NCBI GenBank assembly: GCA_028696935.1
Contig: JAQVGE010000038.1
Coordinates: 1 to 8,567 of the forward strand
DNA: 8,567 nucleotides
Source: Minisyncoccota bacterium
GTDB taxonomy: Bacteria; Patescibacteria; Paceibacteria; UBA9973
Reading direction: 5' to 3'
Shown: piece by piece, positions 235-8,567 of the stretch
Numbering within the stretch: position 1 is the first letter of the stretch
How the letters are laid out: every line of letters starts with the position of its first letter
Position numbers and translations under genes: made by a program
The notes under the pieces: model-generated
Database searches by the model: none
What the model saw: the letters and a program-made list of their open reading frames with translations, nothing else
What the model was told of the DNA's origin: nothing

Positions 235-281
235 CCACTTATACTTGAATATATAGCAGACTATAGATATAATATAAGTGG
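235..281. repeat. 9-bp inverted repeat bracketing the promoter
   Basis: CCACTTATA (235-243) and its exact reverse complement TATAAGTGG (273-281) lie just outside the -35 and across the last base of the -10. The 29-bp gap is too long for a simple tyrosine-recombinase core site. An operator, or arm-type recombinase binding sites near an element end, fits better. The right arm recurs as a 12-base match (AATATAAGTGGA at 271-282 and 5646-5657). Function is inferred, not shown. Confidence 0.5.
245..273 (+). promoter_or_regulatory. sigma-A promoter of the recombinase operon
   Basis: A -35 TTGAAT (245-250) and a perfect -10 TATAAT (268-273) are separated by exactly 17 bp, placing the transcription start near 280-281. 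That is downstream of the GTG at 278 and upstream of the TTG at 305, so the promoter bears directly on the start choice of the first recombinase gene. It is enclosed by a 9-bp inverted repeat. Confidence 0.75.
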
Positions 282-304
282 ATATTGGAAGAAAGGAGCA
301 TATA

Positions 305-3300
305 TTGTTTTCAAATTCTACTAGTAATAAATTAATAAATAGGCTAATAAGTGTATTTCCTGAATATAGAGAAATCGTATCAGAAAAAACCCTCCTGGAA
401 GTATATGGATTACTTTGGGGTAAAAAAAATAATATTAAGATGTCTTCAGAAAATTCAATAAAGGGTCTATATAGTATTGATTCATCATTAGAAGGCTTCA
501 CCAAAATTACGGATGATTTTTTAAAAATAGATTTTTCTCTCTTGCTTAGGGCATTACCCGGCTATATCGCATGTCCTGATAGGCTAGAATCAAGCTTAGA
601 AGTATGTGAAGACGATGTTATTGAAATGACATCGTTAATTTTTTTGGTCAAAAAATGGCTGAGCCAAGAAAATGTGTTGGATAATTTTCTTAAAAACAAA
701 GCCTTCACTTCTTTAAAAAACAGGATGAGAGTAAACGGTTTTATAAAAAACCTGAGTGATGAAAATCTGTTGGAGATAATAGAATCGATTGCAACCTATA
801 ATTTGGATTGGAATTCAATGATGAACATTCCAATTAATAGAATTAATACGGAAGCATATAAGGCCGCGTATTTATTCAACAACGAACTCTTGGAAAGCAA
901 GGACAAACAGTTTGAATATGCCGCAAAAATTTATGAGCATAAATTAAGTAATGAATACATTTTAGAGTATTATTATAAGACTAAATTCTCCAGCAACGAA
1001 GTTCAAAAGGCAAAAGAAATCATGTATGAGATTAAAGAAAGCGTATTGAAGTCTTGCCCATTGGATATAGCTAGCGCGTTAGAAATATCAAAAAAAACAC
1101 TAACCTATAGTTACAATTCAAAAGGAGAATTTGAGAAAGGGACATCAGGATCTGCTATAGAACCAAATGATATTATGCTAAGCATTAGCTTAGCATATCG
1201 TTTTTTCTTAGGTAGTATATCTCTTAATAAAAACAGCGACAATCAGTATTTAGTTTTTTCGCCTTCATCATATTTCATTCGGAAATGGGCTAACGATCCT
1301 GTGGTAAGAGATTTGAATCCTAATATAACCTTTGTAGTTAATGAGTGGAAGAAAATACTATTTGAAACCCACTTCTCTAATGAAGACTATTGCGGAAGTT
1401 TGCGTACTGATTTTAATTTCAAGACCTATGAAGAGATGCGACTAGAATCACCTCTCTCCAGAGAATACGAAAGTGCGTTAATTTTTCCGAACTTAGATTT
1501 AGACAGCTCAAAATCAAAAATTAGTAAGACACTCCTTGAAGATTTTCCGGGGATAAAAAGAGCATATATATTGAGCGCTGAAGGAGATTTTAAAAATTTT
1601 ATTCGTACAAACAATCATGTGTCTGATGCATTACTTTTGCCTAAGGGAATTAATAATAGCAAATCTCCGAAACAGAAAGTTTTCTGGATGTATAACAGCC
1701 AAGAAAAACAAGAAAAAATTATTTTTAACCTCGGTAAACTTGTTAATCACGATTCTATTCAAAGATTATTATTTATAGATGAAGGGGGCATAAGTATCGC
1801 TTACGATGAAGTGATAGGCAATTCGAAAGAGTCGTTGAGAAGAATTTACAATTCAGCAATGCCAAAGAAAAACTCAAGTGCAGAAACTAGAGAAAAGCCA
1901 CGGTATATAGATTTCTCAAAAGAAATTAGGATTTGGTATTGGCTTCAACCAAGCAAGAAAAAGAAAGGCCATTATCGACTGGATGCATACATATGCGATG
2001 AGGCGCGTGAGGGTAAATCGAAGGAACTTCTCCCAAGGGGAAAGCGAATAGAAGACAGTAAAAAACAAAAAAATGGCTTGTTACAATTGGAAGTTGAAAA
2101 TTGGCTGAAAGAAGAGTATCCCTATTCTTATATTAGCAGAAAAAAATCTGGCGAAAACGAAAACAAGCAAGCACTTCGGGACATAATATCGAGTCACTAT
2201 CGAAGAAGTCTCAAGAATGAATCTATCTCAATTAAGACTCTTTGGTACATCTATCCAGAGATAGAGAACCTAATATCATCTTCAGAGAAAATGCTTCTTA
2301 AAGAAATGGCTACAGGGGCTATAGGGCATTTCGATTTAGCGAATACTACGGCAGAAGAATACATAGATGCCATTAGCAATAATTTCATGGGCAGCCAAAT
2401 GGCCCGGCTTAACGTTCTATCAACCGCAATATCCTATGCTGTAAAACAGGGGCATTGCCAGAACAATGTTATTGATGAGACTTTATCAGACATCAGTTCA
2501 ATAAATAAAGGAAGGCTAGATGTAAGAAATGCATTGACCAAAAAATCTCTCACCACTTCTGAATTAAAAGGCTTGTATGAAATAATATGTAGCAGAATAA
2601 CTAATGAGGGAAAGCCAGAGTACATTGGTGTTTTAATAAAGCTATTGACTGGCCTGGAAAGTAACATCATTTGTGCACTGAAAGTAGAGGATTTTGTAAG
2701 GGTTGAAGATTATGGCTTCTACAAATTCATGATATGGAAACAATTAACTAATGACGGTAGTGAAGAAAGAGATATGCAGAAAGTAGAAGACTATAGGTGT
2801 ATTCCCTGCTCTCAAGTTTTATCGAACTACGTAATGTGTCAAGTAGACAGCCTTAAAGAAAAATTCCCGGATAGTTTTTTAAAAATGAGTATCATTTCTG
2901 CAACTAGCGCAGAGGAAACGCAAAAGCCAGTTTCTCCCACTATGTTAGACAGAATATGCAATTCCCTCATTAAGGAAATTGGGATTGAGGATAATGTAAT
3001 TTCGATCCCCGATTTTAACAAGGGAGTTAAAGAAACAAATCTAAGCCGTTATGGAGGTGATATTTATAGAGAAAACTTTAGATATTGGGCTAATAAAAGG
3101 GGGAAATTAAGCTTAGATGAAATTTCATATCTCCTTGGTAATAAACAATCTACTACTTTCGGGAAATTTTACTGTGATTTTATAAATGATAAGGCACAAT
3201 TAGCATTGTATGTCAAATTGTTGCGATTGGACTCAATGTTGTTAAGTGGGACAAGGAGATATCAAAAGAACATCATTCCAAAGATGGGAGATCGTCAAAT

Positions 3301-3445
3301 CATTTTCGAGGCTGAGGGAGATTTGCCTTTATCAATAAAGATAATAGCGAAAAATATAGAAGTTGGTAAATGTAAGATTGAGATGGCAAACAGTTATGGA
3401 ATTGCTATTCAAGCGGGTAAAATTAACGGTGGAGAGGAAGAATGA
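305..3445 (+). CDS. giant tyrosine-recombinase-like protein with degenerate active site
   Basis: This is a 1046-aa protein if started at TTG 305, which has AAGGAG at 293-298 six bases upstream. An in-frame GTG at 278 has no ribosome binding site and lies ahead of the predicted transcript start. Only the C-terminal third is recognisable: a SAM-like core-binding segment (about 679-736, with TTAEEYIDAI) and a tyrosine-recombinase catalytic fold (about 760-965). In box I the usual TGLR reads TGLE (Glu785), so the first catalytic arginine is replaced by an acidic residue. Lys812 and the YRCIPC strand fit the beta region. Box II keeps Arg922 (YRENF), but the HxxR histidine position is Asp919. The LIGH histidine is Asn946 (LLGN). 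Tyr956 (GKFYCDF) could be the nucleophile. Residues 1-~670 match nothing I know. A ~60-residue beta-rich tail follows the catalytic domain. It overlaps the next recombinase gene by ATGA. It probably acts as a partner or architectural subunit; strand cleavage by itself looks doubtful. Confidence 0.85.
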   Translation: MFSNSTSNKLINRLISVFPEYREIVSEKTLLEVYGLLWGKKNNIKMSSENSIKGLYSIDSSLEGFTKITDDFLKIDFSLLLRALPGYIACPDRLESSLEVCEDDVIEMTSLIFLVKKWLSQENVLDNFLKNKAFTSLKNRMRVNGFIKNLSDENLLEIIESIATYNLDWNSMMNIPINRINTEAYKAAYLFNNELLESKDKQFEYAAKIYEHKLSNEYILEYYYKTKFSSNEVQKAKEIMYEIKESVLKSCPLDIASALEISKKTLTYSYNSKGEFEKGTSGSAIEPNDIMLSISLAYRFFLGSISLNKNSDNQYLVFSPSSYFIRKWANDPVVRDLNPNITFVVNEWKKILFETHFSNEDYCGSLRTDFNFKTYEEMRLESPLSREYESALIFPNLDLDSSKSKISKTLLEDFPGIKRAYILSAEGDFKNFIRTNNHVSDALLLPKGINNSKSPKQKVFWMYNSQEKQEKIIFNLGKLVNHDSIQRLLFIDEGGISIAYDEVIGNSKESLRRIYNSAMPKKNSSAETREKPRYIDFSKEIRIWYWLQPSKKKKGHYRLDAYICDEAREGKSKELLPRGKRIEDSKKQKNGLLQLEVENWLKEEYPYSYISRKKSGENENKQALRDIISSHYRRSLKNESISIKTLWYIYPEIENLISSSEKMLLKEMATGAIGHFDLANTTAEEYIDAISNNFMGSQMARLNVLSTAISYAVKQGHCQNNVIDETLSDISSINKGRLDVRNALTKKSLTTSELKGLYEIICSRITNEGKPEYIGVLIKLLTGLESNIICALKVEDFVRVEDYGFYKFMIWKQLTNDGSEERDMQKVEDYRCIPCSQVLSNYVMCQVDSLKEKFPDSFLKMSIISATSAEETQKPVSPTMLDRICNSLIKEIGIEDNVISIPDFNKGVKETNLSRYGGDIYRENFRYWANKRGKLSLDEISYLLGNKQSTTFGKFYCDFINDKAQLALYVKLLRLDSMLLSGTRRYQKNIIPKMGDRQIIFEAEGDLPLSIKIIAKNIEVGKCKIEMANSYGIAIQAGKINGGEEE

Positions 3446-4896
3446 TGAGAATAGATATAGCACCTGGGTATTTAGATAAAGCGCCTGATAACTCCTTTAA
3501 TTTTGTGGGTGTCTTGAGGAAGTATTTTTACACAAATGGAGATTTTAATCCAATAAACAAAAACTGGAATGAAGACACACAATCTAGATATCTTGAAGAT
3601 TACGAAAGAAGACTTATACCATGTCTAGGGGAATTAAAGGCAATGCATGAGTACGAGGAAGAGGATTTTATTGCCGCGCTTATTAAACTGAGAGAACAGT
3701 ACCAATACGGTGAAAAGAGTATGGCACATTACACGCAGTTAATTTGGCGTGTGTATAAAGCAGGTTTAGAAAATTGCTTGTATGAAGATAAAATATTTTG
3801 GGAAGATTTGGATGACGGCAGGAACGAAAAAAGTCGTAGAAATGAGAAGGAAAGACTGATCCTGACCAAAAAATCATTCACTATTGAAGAGGAAAAGAAA
3901 CTACTTGTATGGGCTAAAAGTCTAGATCCTAAATCCGCAACGGGTCAAGAAATTGGATTGTTATTGATGTTCTTGTTTGGACTACGTAACCAAGAAGCCT
4001 GTGGACTGGATTTTGGTGGTATTAAGCTATTAACTATGCAGAAGTATCCCTGCTTATATATATATCAAACAACTAGTGGAACAGGTAATAGTATAAAGGC
4101 AGGGGGGAAAACCTCTAATGCAGCACGTATAATTCCTATTTTTAACTTCATTTACAATTTTTTGTTGGAGAGACGACATCACATAGAGGAGTATTTACAA
4201 TGCACTTCTTCGCAGGTTCAGGGTGCAAGAGTTGAAGGAATCGATAAAATCCCTGTGGTATGCAAAAACAATCAATACGAGACTAGAGCTAGTAGTCGGG
4301 ATTTAACAGAGCTAGGAAGAAATCTATTCAGAATATTAGACATTAGGGAAGATGCCAGGAAAGAACTAAAAAGAACTCAATTTTCGCAAAAAATGAGCGA
4401 AATAGATATCGGAGAAAAAGATGCAACCACATATTTGTTTAGAAGGAATTTTGCGACCAATCTTTACTGTCTTGGATTAACCTGTAGCGAAATACAGTAT
4501 TTGATTGGACATGACGTAGAAAATCCTGTTGAAACGCGAAATTATTTAACCAATGAAGATAATATTAGTGTTATGAAAGAAAAACTAGATGAACATCCAT
4601 ATATTTTATTCTTTGAGAAGGATAGGACTAAATGTATAATAATTAATGATGATATATACAGAAATGATGGCAACGCACTAGAACTGTTGGAACTAAATGC
4701 TTCTAAATTAGGTAGTGAATATAGAATAAATATAACTGCGGAGGAACCATTGGATAATATTCTAGTGACTTTTCATGACCATAATTGCTATGAGTATACG
4801 TGTACAAAAGACTATAAATACGATTCATATGGATGTAAGGAAACCGTCAATATTAGAACCGTAATAAAAGAACGCTACAAGAGAAAGTTAGGATAG
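3442..4896 (+). CDS. tyrosine recombinase/integrase (484 aa)
   Basis: A site-specific tyrosine recombinase, expected to cut and rejoin DNA through a 3'-phosphotyrosine. An N-terminal core-binding domain spans about 20-135 (an RYLEDYERRLIP..LGEL helix, then helices to about 130). The catalytic domain spans about 145-375. Visible active-site residues are Arg182 (FGLRNQEA), a lysine in the beta hairpin (Lys223 or Lys219) before RIIPIF, Arg334 with Arg335 (LFRRNFAT), His357 (LIGH) and Tyr368 (RNYL). The HxxR histidine is Tyr331, a tolerated variation. About 115 residues follow the nucleophile, which is unusually long, and include a Cys/His cluster (H445, H447, C449, C454, C465). The start ATG overlaps the stop of the preceding gene (ATGA). 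GGAG at 3431-3434 sits 7 bases upstream; ATG 3445 is an alternative. The overlap implies translational coupling and a fixed ratio with the giant partner. This looks like the catalytic member of the pair. Confidence 0.9.
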   Translation: MMRIDIAPGYLDKAPDNSFNFVGVLRKYFYTNGDFNPINKNWNEDTQSRYLEDYERRLIPCLGELKAMHEYEEEDFIAALIKLREQYQYGEKSMAHYTQLIWRVYKAGLENCLYEDKIFWEDLDDGRNEKSRRNEKERLILTKKSFTIEEEKKLLVWAKSLDPKSATGQEIGLLLMFLFGLRNQEACGLDFGGIKLLTMQKYPCLYIYQTTSGTGNSIKAGGKTSNAARIIPIFNFIYNFLLERRHHIEEYLQCTSSQVQGARVEGIDKIPVVCKNNQYETRASSRDLTELGRNLFRILDIREDARKELKRTQFSQKMSEIDIGEKDATTYLFRRNFATNLYCLGLTCSEIQYLIGHDVENPVETRNYLTNEDNISVMKEKLDEHPYILFFEKDRTKCIIINDDIYRNDGNALELLELNASKLGSEYRINITAEEPLDNILVTFHDHNCYEYTCTKDYKYDSYGCKETVNIRTVIKERYKRKLG

Positions 4897-5086: not shown

Positions 5087-5347
5087 ATGCAAGAAAAACA
5101 GACTAGAGCTCAGTATGGATCCGTCAAAAAATCACCTAGCCAGAATGTGTTGCCAAACCATATTAAAGAGCTACGGATTGCAAATGGCTACCTCACGCAG
5201 AAACAGTTTGCAGTAGCAATGGGAGTTTCTGAAGCTACCATATGCTACTGGGAAACTGGATCATTCTTCCCTACCACACAGAATATACGCAAGTTATGTT
5301 CCACTCTAAACTGCACTGTGGATGAATTATTCGACTGGGATGCATAA
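5087..5347 (+). CDS. Xre/Cro-family HTH transcriptional regulator
   Basis: An 86-aa DNA-binding protein. After a ~20-residue polar N-terminal extension, residues about 23-82 form a typical Cro/C1-type HTH: IKELRIANGYLTQKQFAVAM (helices 1-2), VSEATICYWETGSFFP (recognition helix and turn), then IRKLCSTLNCTVDELF. GAGGG at 5075-5079 lies 7 bases ahead of the ATG. It has its own promoter and is followed by a strong terminator, so it is probably a single-gene transcript. Its position just after the recombinase pair suggests that it controls that operon or assists excision, as small HTH proteins do in other integrative elements. The inverted repeat around the promoter at 245-273 is a candidate operator. 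That link is inference. The regulator assignment itself is firm. Confidence 0.88.
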   Translation: MQEKQTRAQYGSVKKSPSQNVLPNHIKELRIANGYLTQKQFAVAMGVSEATICYWETGSFFPTTQNIRKLCSTLNCTVDELFDWDA

Positions 5348-6198: not shown

Positions 6199-6260
6199 GA
6201 GTTAAAAACCTATTGGTTAGTGTAGATAAAAAGACACTTAAATTTATGTGGGAGGTTGAA

Positions 6261-7409
6261 ATGGCTAAGGAAGCTTGGCGGATTGTTAATGGGGATGAAA
6301 AATCCAAAACCTTGGTTAAAGCTGTGGATGAAGTAAAGCGGAAAGATAACTCCAATGAAATAGTATCTTATAGGTGCAAGGGAGTTGTAAAGGGAGATGG
6401 ATGTACTGCAATAATGATGATTTATGGAAGAGATTCGGATTCTGTTCGACCCTATTTTCACGAGTTTGGAAAGTTTGGGAAACATATTACAGATTGCCCG
6501 GAATATGTTAAAGGAGGGTCTAATCGTCTTCTGGGGGATCTATCGAGAAACCCAAAGAAGATTAATCTCGGTAAGTTTTTAGCAAGGCTGACAAGAAAAG
6601 AAAGCCTGGAAAAATCACAGACGAATCGCGATGTCGAACAATTGGCGGGAAAAGAAAAAAAACAGAAGCAGAGCGGCCTATATAATTCCAACGAACCAAA
6701 AGTTGTAATGAAAAGTGTTAAAAATTTAAATGACTTATATATCGTTCTTTCTGCAGCTGCCCCAAATGAAATTATGGGTGATGGTAGAGCATGTGGAGAG
6801 GGAATAATTAATAAGCGCACAATCGGCAGTTATAAAGGGTATAAGGGAAAAGGATGCAGGGAGATTAAAGGTGCCGTATTAGTTATCGCAAGAAAAGTTC
6901 CACACACAGAGTTGGGAAATATAGGCCTTAATGATATAGAGAAGTATCAATGGGTACTCAAAGATCCTTATCGCGTAATGAATCAAGAAAACATATCTGA
7001 TAAGTACATAAATAGAATTTATTATGTTCTCGTTTTTAAGGATAAAAAGCTGTTTTTTGAGACAAGAACGAGATTATTAAAAATACTTTCTAATAGGCTT
7101 TGCTTAGTATTTTGCGATTGGAAGTTCTCAAAGTATAATTCAGATCATACAGCAATATATGTAGGAGAAATTGAATCAAGTAGTCAACTGGCATTTTTGG
7201 ATACTGAGAACCAGTCGCAAGAAGTTTCTAGGATAACAATTAGCAATGGAGCCAGTCAAAATAGAAATATCATAGAAGAAAATACAGTTCGAGGTAACCT
7301 TCTCCGTAGGCGGTTTAAAAAACGCCGCAACACATATTATGGAAAAAGTGAGCTTAATAAATTGGTATTAGATAAATTTCCATTATTGTATGCTAAAAAC
7401 AAAAGGTAA
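6261..7409 (+). CDS. unrecognised 382-aa protein with Cys/His cluster
   Basis: The start is ATG 6261, chosen because GGAGG (6251-6255) sits five bases upstream; a TTG at 6213 in the same frame has none. I do not recognise the whole protein. Residues 39-79 hold a possible zinc site: C39-x8-C48, then H67-x7-H75-x3-C79 in the context FHEFGKFGKHITDC, resembling the N-terminal Cys/His region of CoiA-like competence proteins. Residues ~85-155 are basic, polar and probably flexible. Residues ~160-310 look like a folded alpha/beta domain with several hydrophobic strands (DLYIVLSAA, GAVLVIARK, RIYYVLVFKD, CLVFCDWKF). The C-terminus has a strongly basic patch (347-356, LLRRRFKKRR). There is no signal peptide or membrane segment. 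A nucleic-acid-binding role is plausible but inferred. The gene stands alone, converging on the RHH gene, and could be cargo of either element. Confidence 0.75.
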   Translation: MAKEAWRIVNGDEKSKTLVKAVDEVKRKDNSNEIVSYRCKGVVKGDGCTAIMMIYGRDSDSVRPYFHEFGKFGKHITDCPEYVKGGSNRLLGDLSRNPKKINLGKFLARLTRKESLEKSQTNRDVEQLAGKEKKQKQSGLYNSNEPKVVMKSVKNLNDLYIVLSAAAPNEIMGDGRACGEGIINKRTIGSYKGYKGKGCREIKGAVLVIARKVPHTELGNIGLNDIEKYQWVLKDPYRVMNQENISDKYINRIYYVLVFKDKKLFFETRTRLLKILSNRLCLVFCDWKFSKYNSDHTAIYVGEIESSSQLAFLDTENQSQEVSRITISNGASQNRNIIEENTVRGNLLRRRFKKRRNTYYGKSELNKLVLDKFPLLYAKNKR

Positions 7410-7471: not shown

Positions 7472-7660
7472 CTATTTGATAGAGTCTCTATGTATGGTCT
7501 CGTCTATAGCTCGTATAATAAAGGCAGTCATAGATTCCCCCCTAGAACTTGCGTGAGCAGAAATCTTTTCTTTTTCGCCTTTGGGAACTCGAAAACGTAT
7601 TAAATCAAACTTCTCGAAATATTTTCTGTTGGCTTTAAGTTGGGCTTCAGTTTTTGGCAT
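7472..7660 (-). CDS. ribbon-helix-helix (Arc/MetJ-type) DNA-binding protein
   Basis: A 62-aa protein on the minus strand. ATG at 7660-7658 is preceded by a perfect AGGAGGT (7674-7668) with 7-base spacing. A TTG two codons upstream lies too close to that site to be the start. The N-terminal MPKTEAQLKANRKYFEKFD is typical of small RHH proteins carried on Clostridia integrative elements. LIRFRVPKGEKE forms the DNA-contacting beta strand, KISAHASSRGES helix A and the turn, and MTAFIIRAIDETI helix B. Such proteins bind DNA as dimers and usually repress. It is divergent from the promoter that drives xis and int, with a perfect 7-bp-arm dyad in that promoter's spacer 46 bases from its start codon, so it is the obvious candidate repressor of excision and of itself. 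That role is inferred from position. Confidence 0.85.
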   Translation of the reverse strand: MPKTEAQLKANRKYFEKFDLIRFRVPKGEKEKISAHASSRGESMTAFIIRAIDETIHRDSIK

Positions 7661-7703
7661 GAACAAAACCTCCTAAATATTATTTTAAAAGCGAAAAAAA
7701 CAC

Positions 7704-7999: not shown

Positions 8000-8185
8000 A
8001 TGGACAGCAAGAGATTTCTCAATGTTAACGATGTAGCAACTATCATGGATATCTCAGTACCTACGGCATACAAGATTATTAAGAGGCTAAATGATGATCT
8101 TTTAGCACAGGGGTACATAACGATTGCAGGTAGAATAAGCCGAGCATATTTTGAGGCTAAAGTATATGGGATGGAAATAGCATAG
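8000..8185 (+). CDS. excisionase-like small HTH protein
   Basis: A 61-aa protein. A winged-HTH core runs from LNVNDVATIMDISVPTAYKI (about residues 7-26), which reads as helix-turn-helix, to GYITIAGRISRAYF, which fits a beta wing and final helix. Small proteins of this type encoded just upstream of a tyrosine integrase commonly act as recombination directionality factors (Xis), bending DNA at attachment sites to favour excision. The start ATG 8000 has GGGGG at 7986-7990 nine bases upstream, a modest site. An ATG at 7993 is followed at once by a stop codon. The gene is read from the promoter at 7704-7732 through the structured leader. The integrase follows after 13 bases, its ribosome binding site overlapping this stop codon, so the two are a coupled operon. 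Whether it is a true excisionase or only a regulator cannot be told from sequence. Confidence 0.8.
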   Translation: MDSKRFLNVNDVATIMDISVPTAYKIIKRLNDDLLAQGYITIAGRISRAYFEAKVYGMEIA

Positions 8186-8198
8186 GAGGTGAGTTTAG

Positions 8199-8567
8199 AT
8201 GTCAGTTTATAAAGATGAAAAAACAGGGAAATGGTTTTCACAATTTCGCTACAAAACCTGGCAAGGAGAAATTAAGAGAAGTACTAAACGTGGATTCGCT
8301 ACAAAAAGAGAAGCGGTCCAGTGGGAGCGCGAATTCATTTTGAAACAGAAAAATTCAATATGTATGACGTTTAGGCAGTTTGTAAAAAGATACGAGGAAG
8401 ATATGATGCCTCGGCTAAAAGAAAGCACTTGTTATAATAAGCGACGAATTTTTGAATGTAAACTCATTCCTTATTTCGGCGAAAAGAGACTTGATGAAAT
8501 AACAACTACAGACATTATTCAATGGCAGAACGAGATGTTTAAATATCGTGATAAAAAGACTGGGATG
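8199..8567 (+). CDS. int: phage/Tn916-type tyrosine integrase, N-terminal part (runs off the window)
   Basis: ATG 8199 is preceded six bases upstream by a perfect AGGAGGTGA (8184-8192), overlapping the xis stop. The 123 visible residues hold an arm-type (AP2-like) DNA-binding domain at about 1-50 (VYKDEKTGKWFSQFRYKTW, then KRGFATKREAVQWEREF) and the start of a SAM-like core-binding domain from about 56 (MTFRQFVKRYEEDM, then RRIFECKLIPYFGEKRLDEI). The catalytic domain, with R, H, R and Y residues, lies beyond the window. The layout matches integrases of prophages and Tn916-like conjugative elements, usually 370-410 aa. It would insert and excise the element at an attachment site probably just past its 3' end. 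This enzyme is unrelated in architecture to the two recombinases at 305-4896. Confidence 0.92.
   Translation, partial: MSVYKDEKTGKWFSQFRYKTWQGEIKRSTKRGFATKREAVQWEREFILKQKNSICMTFRQFVKRYEEDMMPRLKESTCYNKRRIFECKLIPYFGEKRLDEITTTDIIQWQNEMFKYRDKKTGM

Follow-up and report, generated by a model that had tools for sequence, protein, structure and literature searches.

XerC and XerD are two paralogous tyrosine recombinases that form a heterotetramer, and both of them are complete. IntDOT of CTnDOT is missing the box I arginine and is a single active integrase, in which compensation takes place inside the protein. Complementing mutants of Flp have been used to build a split active site in the laboratory. 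In Flp, according to the available text of two studies, the pocket of the active site comes from one subunit and the tyrosine from its neighbour (PMC4381057, PMC8371274). Modules of the SE/GInt/Tn554 type are defined, in the available part of the source, by at least two R-H-R-Y recombinases that are encoded together (PMC10214605), and SE elements are strand-biased, with recombinases that are said in the accessible text to be complete (PMC10214605, PMC9345347). Here, we analysed a stretch of 8567 bases, hereafter the window, from contig JAQVGE010000038.1 of a Minisyncoccota bacterium, in which two neighbouring genes, A and B, encode homologous proteins (E 7.6e-17, hhalign). From the residues that each protein family conserves, we lean slightly towards reading A and B as paralogous tyrosine recombinases sharing one divided active site, in which Tyr965 of A would act in trans to the pocket of B.

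Protein A (278..3445, plus strand) has 1055 amino acids and combines a methyltransferase-like domain with a degenerate tyrosine-recombinase domain in which the nucleophile tyrosine is retained. The latter, residues 645-990 (2210..3247, plus strand), consists of the core-binding and catalytic domains of the tyrosine-recombinase fold, and its core-binding region weakly resembles integrase core-binding domains in sequence. Searches of Pfam, NCBIfam and PHROGs with A gave no meaningful match. Compared with a canonical recombinase, A has the fold with its core-binding domain and the nucleophile tyrosine, and it lacks the box I arginine, the HxxR histidine and the His/Trp residue. The position of the box I arginine is taken by Glu794 (2657..2659), that of the HxxR histidine by Asp928 (3059..3061) and that of His/Trp, the histidine of LIGH, by Asn955 (3140..3142), all on the plus strand. 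The box II arginine, Arg931 (3068..3070, plus strand), and Tyr965 (3170..3172, plus strand), which is the last residue of a predicted helix 960-965, remain. All of these states had been read from the codons in the original prediction and are confirmed; that numbering counted from the ATG at 305 and ours counts from 278, so that Glu785, Asp919, Asn946, Arg922 and Tyr956 there are Glu794, Asp928, Asn955, Arg931 and Tyr965 here. In the AlphaFold2 single-chain model of A, a formed helix ends at Tyr965.

Homologues of A comprise 20 proteins, A itself included, 11 loci in public genomes and further genome loci. The protein search scored the best 7995 candidates for A, and the best 7998 for B. At E <= 0.001, A matched 13 of 300, 10 of 139, 11 of 244 and 14 of 397 genomes, many of the weaker matches being ordinary integrases; when proteins were searched once more, with the A alignment as query, only 2 matches appeared. 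The relatives are mostly open frames of about 850-1180 amino acids that are 20-37 % identical to the A of the window and belong to Bacillota and Spirochaetales. Without exact sub-copies the alignment has 48 rows, and 45 after L042, L043 and L044, which have no letters at the sites, were dropped. The box I position is Glu in 32 of these 45 rows, Asp in 4, Ser in 3, Thr in 2, and Asn, Pro, Gly and Ala in 1 each. The HxxR histidine position is Asp in 40 of 44 rows and His in 0, and the His/Trp position is Asn in 32 of 43, Arg in three, Tyr in one and His or Trp in 0. At the box II position there are 36 Arg, 7 Lys, 1 Leu and 1 Ser among the 45 rows. The nucleophile tyrosine is present in all 43 rows with letters, as is an aspartate two residues further on, and Tyr965 ranks 3rd of 301 columns by column entropy. 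P0008 and one piece of L011 have no letters in the tyrosine column. At L011 (11571-13064), A is interrupted by an ISL3-type transposase gene that runs in the opposite direction, and this copy counts as two of the 45 rows; without both pieces the counts become 0/43 for the box I arginine, 0/43 for the HxxR histidine, 0/42 for His/Trp and 42/42 for the tyrosine.

Because arginine is found at the box I position in 0 of the 45 rows, its loss is old and a trait of the family, with glutamate in most members. The original prediction had seen in this residue a selected loss of activity and not decay, and its own check against homologues does not refute it, the loss being not recent. A recent mutation, or an oddity of this one window, is therefore rejected for Glu794, and another arginine at the box I position of A is ruled out by hhalign. 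The active site of A looks dead in all rows. Plain decay of a duplicated recombinase is very improbable for frames that are mostly open and as divergent as these across two lineages, with an invariant tyrosine, even though single cases resemble it: at L086, one of 29 A loci, A is truncated, without a recombinase domain and without B, the B of L079 is a stub of 95 amino acids at a contig end, and the A of L011 is the interrupted copy.

Protein B (3442..4896, plus strand), a tyrosine recombinase of 484 amino acids, has an invariant pocket and a variable nucleophile position. Its alignment, from which exact sub-copies were removed beforehand, has 86 rows, with letters at each site in 85; a few near-copies are left among these, two of which are the same place fetched twice, and 75 rows remain after clustering. 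Arg182 of box I (3985..3987), Lys223 of the β-hairpin (4108..4110), both Tyr331 and Arg334 of an HxxR box in which the histidine is replaced by tyrosine (Tyr331-x-x-Arg334, 4432..4443) and His357 of LIGH (4510..4512), all on the plus strand, are each found in 85 of 85 rows, and so is Glu185. Position 368 (4543..4545, plus strand), where the nucleophile is expected, is Tyr in the window and in 15 of the 85 rows overall; the remainder have Phe (28), Asp (18), Ser (7), Glu (6), Ala (4), His (3), Gly (2), Thr (1) and Met (1). Compared with a canonical recombinase, B has the Arg-Lys-Arg-His pocket, and as a family it lacks the nucleophile tyrosine. Clustering leaves Tyr368 in 10 of 75 rows at 95 % identity and in 8 of 60 at 70 %, with a pocket still without exception. 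The next column is mostly Phe (62, with 17 Tyr), so that shifting the alignment by one column restores no conserved tyrosine. When 256 columns are ranked by conservation, the pocket residues are within the first 8 and position 368 is 154th. The state at this position, Tyr or non-Tyr, changes at least 6 times, by loss or gain, across a tree of 84 rows from which columns 366-370 were left out, and the pocket never varies. As a control, 38 ordinary recombinases of the fetched loci, many of them from genomes without A/B, have Arg in 38/38, His in 38/38, Arg in 37/37, His in 37/37 and Tyr in 36/36 of the rows with letters. The AlphaFold2 single-chain model of B has only a four-residue turn at the nucleophile position. 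The pair in the window is not the best witness, because its B is complete. The seven nearest relatives of this B with letters at 368 (P0027, P0040, P0050, P0053, P0039, P0076 and P0042; 39-50 % identity) all have Phe, and the following three have Tyr.

The nucleophile of B could also be sought elsewhere in the protein, in Tyr331, at the HxxR histidine position, or in Tyr479 (4876-4878) of the C-terminal helix, with A in a structural role. Tyr331 is invariant, as said, and Tyr479 is kept in 72 of the 78 rows with letters. However, Tyr331 occupies a pocket position, and Tyr479 lacks an equivalent in short members of the B family, for example those of L009 and L090. In the three Cre alignments that reach it, moreover, the C-terminal helix ends against Cre 333-336, which is past the Cre nucleophile, Tyr324. 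Neither residue would explain a tyrosine of A that is kept in every row with letters, and we consider a separate nucleophile in B quite unlikely.

The two genes occur side by side well beyond the window. There are 29 distinct A loci, the window included, and B lies directly downstream in 25 of them, a number that includes L002, where B is cut by the contig end, and L079, with its stub. Among the loci without B, A is cut by the contig end, leaving no room for B, at L080, L084 and L085, and L086 has the truncated A. When measured from the first possible B start, 14 of 18 pairs overlap, by 1-62 bases and in one case by 188, and 4 are separated by 0-9 bases. In the window, the stop of A and the start of B share the four bases ATGA (3442..3445, plus strand), an overlap through which translation of A and B is probably coupled. 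When 139 genomes were searched with B only (E <= 1e-15), matches came from 7 places in 6 of the genomes, every one of these places being at an A locus. A plasmid search gave no relative of A and one record for B. A plasmid of Aristaeella lactis that was found with B has a very divergent A-like gene of 1031 amino acids just upstream, in which a tyrosine aligns with that of A, yet over that stretch alone the match lacks significance; the B of this plasmid has Glu at 368. At some loci A is short (L010, 315 amino acids; L074, 491; L075, 303) and B may be long (L074, 1071 amino acids; L075, 901). These short-A loci keep the split, A having the tyrosine and B having Asp (L074, L075) or His (L010) at position 368. 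The C-terminal stretch of the L075 B (L075:10529-13234) matches the C-terminal propeller of DNA gyrase A (E 4e-10).

A and B are thus homologous, adjacent and complementary in the residues that they conserve. With the complementary loss in B, A looks less like a helper beside a complete enzyme and more like one half of an enzyme whose other half is B. The original prediction had A perhaps lending a tyrosine to a complete recombinase next door; lending is what fits the data best, while the neighbour is not complete as a rule, 70 of the 85 B rows being non-Tyr at position 368. In the divided site that we propose, B would give the phosphate-binding pocket (Arg182, Lys223, Arg334 and His357) and A would give Tyr965 in trans, by a helix that reaches into the neighbouring B, as in Flp. 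The pocket of A appears to have turned acidic and dead. With that pocket dead and the tyrosine of B mostly missing, only sites made of an A tyrosine and a B pocket would form. If A and B alternate around a ring, the live sites would be two out of four, and always the same two, so that one fixed pair of strands would be cut and exchanged. The residue pattern fits this proposal because each protein conserves only the part that it would contribute.

Several observations weigh against a divided site. Arg931 of A is also largely kept, with Lys in most of the other rows, and the model does not need it. Tyrosine is present in B at 368 or in the next column in 32 of the 85 rows (18 of 60 clusters), and the B of the window, having Tyr368, could be complete by itself. 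The AlphaFold2 models are of single chains only. B may have an unusual nucleophile of its own because Tyr331 and Tyr479 are conserved, and many of the elements that carry A/B have an ordinary integrase (Int) and Xis able to do all recombination. Lastly, the tyrosine kept in A need not be catalytic, because MrpR, a repressor of recombinase fold, keeps Tyr and Lys, has lost other residues and does not recombine, according to the available text (PMC10516654). A could be a pseudo-recombinase of this kind, which, in line with the architectural or regulatory partner of the original prediction, regulates or scaffolds and uses its tyrosine for folding or DNA contact, with B cutting alone where Tyr368 is present; the complete B of the window agrees with this, and the methyltransferase-like domain of A suits a DNA-binding scaffold. 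The residue pattern of MrpR is seen in A and is not seen in B. A lone cutter should retain Tyr368, however, and so its absence from most B rows in spite of a full pocket, together with its repeated changes on the tree, counts against B cutting alone. We regard this explanation as unlikely.

The methyltransferase-like domain of A, residues 188-528 (839..1861, plus strand), has a fold like that of the M subunit of type I restriction enzymes. Its NPPF-type motif is not recognisable (FSPSSYF in the window, FPTPFF in the consensus), and for this reason the domain is probably not a working methylase. DNA binding is its probable role, and it may position the complex. The pairing of a methyltransferase-like fold with a dead recombinase domain is an unusual union of two apparent pseudoenzymes.

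Many A/B pairs appear to ride on elements at guaA that have their own integrase. At 12 of the 29 loci, about 300 bases at most separate A/B from guaA or its end, and the 3' end of guaA is, in the available text of two sources, a known integration site of such elements (PMC5704250, PMC8138268). In genome G004, 14 bases of the guaA end recur at a distance of 36 kb, with the variant base of that strain; at a BLAST E of 0.025 this repeat is not beyond doubt. Between the two copies there are Xis, Int, a NikA-like gene, a Mob_Pre relaxase and BREX genes. The BREX genes of this element (L106/L107) comprise BrxA, BrxB, PglZ, BrxL and two open reading frames of 1204 amino acids, of which one was scanned and matches methylase families; BrxL-type domains are found in two separate open reading frames, with relaxase and IS66 genes between them. 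A few neighbours scanned at L001 included no relaxase, and a role of A/B as a conjugative relaxase was dropped, as G004, the only element of which both ends were found, has the Mob_Pre relaxase. No convincing second guaA end came from the other eight contigs searched, and the window has no guaA end beyond chance, including to the left of A, in contrast to 12 other loci. At L089, the pair adjoins rpoA and a small gene instead of guaA; judging by gene order, this small gene is probably rplQ.

An Int gene or a part of one is near A/B in 19 of the 26 loci that hold a pair, three of these being distant matches only. GxR..E and HxxRH are present in every one of the 14 close Int rows, and the tyrosine in 13, the Int of L007 (315 amino acids) being without that end. 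At L001, L009, L011 and L088, Int is about 6-9 kb from the guaA end and A/B is beside it, so that either Int may move the element, leaving A/B some other task, or A/B may act at its edge. Mostly intact integrases near the pairs would also suit a complex in which neither A nor B cuts and which, by binding DNA, assists or controls the ordinary integrase of the element. We give this only a slim chance, the invariance of the B pocket in 85 of 85 rows being hard to explain without chemistry. A broader picture, which we offer tentatively and with some doubt, is that of a natural two-component tyrosine recombinase that arose by duplication and complementary loss and that is wired to swap one pair of strands and then stop, with the host or replication left to deal with a Holliday junction or a nicked product; it would possibly be steered by a dead methyltransferase domain and would work beside the ordinary integrase of the element.

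The longest contig listed with A has the 8567 bases of the window, while the sequence of B in the window is listed identically on four contigs, the largest of which has 17,326 bases. The stretch to the left of A (1-277) is covered by a minus-strand open reading frame (10-504). A small helix-turn-helix gene (5087-5347) lies to the right of B and is followed by gene C (6213..7409, plus strand; 398 amino acids), which is weakly related to a third gene found beside A/B elsewhere (E 7e-5 against the gene of L083). A minus-strand open reading frame of 64 amino acids (7472-7666) may encode a ribbon-helix-helix protein. The window ends with a small Xis-like helix-turn-helix protein (8000..8185, plus strand) and the start of an ordinary Tn916-type integrase (8199..8567, plus strand), which is cut by the contig end. 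Gene C is fast-evolving, has about 290-400 amino acids and adjoins or is near A/B in many loci (for example L083:12275-13264, L008:13959-14996 and L009:8435-9445), some copies having weak CoiA_N or DUF7830 matches. The neighbours in this position are not all of one family, that of L007 being a Fic protein. PADLOC gave weak matches only (HEC-01B to A, E 0.025; Cas5b to C, E 9e-4, 17 bits), which are not trusted and are too weak to identify a known defence system. No relatives were found in phages or viral contigs, and a phage origin is rejected on this ground. In 11 stretches upstream of A, hairpins differ from locus to locus and no common site was seen by eye, no formal motif search having been made.

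A literature search, with most subscription papers outside its coverage, found no natural two-gene active site among tyrosine recombinases. If the divided site is real, evolution in gut bacteria and spirochaetes would have split, by itself, the active site of a textbook enzyme family, and the outcome would be an obligate two-protein recombinase. It would also allow a direct test of how the two rounds of strand exchange are shared out between subunits, as the pair that fires would be set by gene identity. Searches that demand R-H-R-Y within one protein would miss such systems, the A of the window being a case without a meaningful Pfam, NCBIfam or PHROGs match.

Flp and the SSV-type archaeal integrases have in common with A/B the tyrosine-recombinase fold and an active site shared between subunits, the tyrosine in trans being proposed for A/B. 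Flp is a single gene product, however, in which each subunit has both pocket and tyrosine, whereas A/B conserve these in two paralogues and neither family conserves both in one product. XerC/XerD are a paralogous pair, like A/B; unlike them, A is never complete and B mostly is not. IntDOT differs from A in that A has lost most of the pocket. The MrpR-type repressors of SPbeta-like phages resemble A in their recombinase fold, in the loss of several catalytic residues and in the tyrosine that is kept; unlike A/B, MrpR is a repressor and is described, in the available text, without a partner bearing complementary residues (PMC10516654). The closest arrangement of genes is that of SE (IntA, Tfp, IntB, Srap), GInt (GinABCD), Tn554 (TnpABC) and the RIT trios, where, as in A/B, recombinase-type proteins are encoded side by side by coupled genes in site-specific elements. 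Two R-H-R-Y recombinases, by which such modules are defined, are not found in A/B, A being without R and H and B mostly without Y. The partners Tfp and GinC have a core-binding domain only, unlike A/B, and no methyltransferase-like domain such as that of A was encountered for SE, GInt, Tn554 or RIT in the text consulted. IntB of SE has a very long N-terminus, a likeness to the A/B module, and the exchange of one pair of strands that we infer for A/B recalls the strand-biased SE elements.
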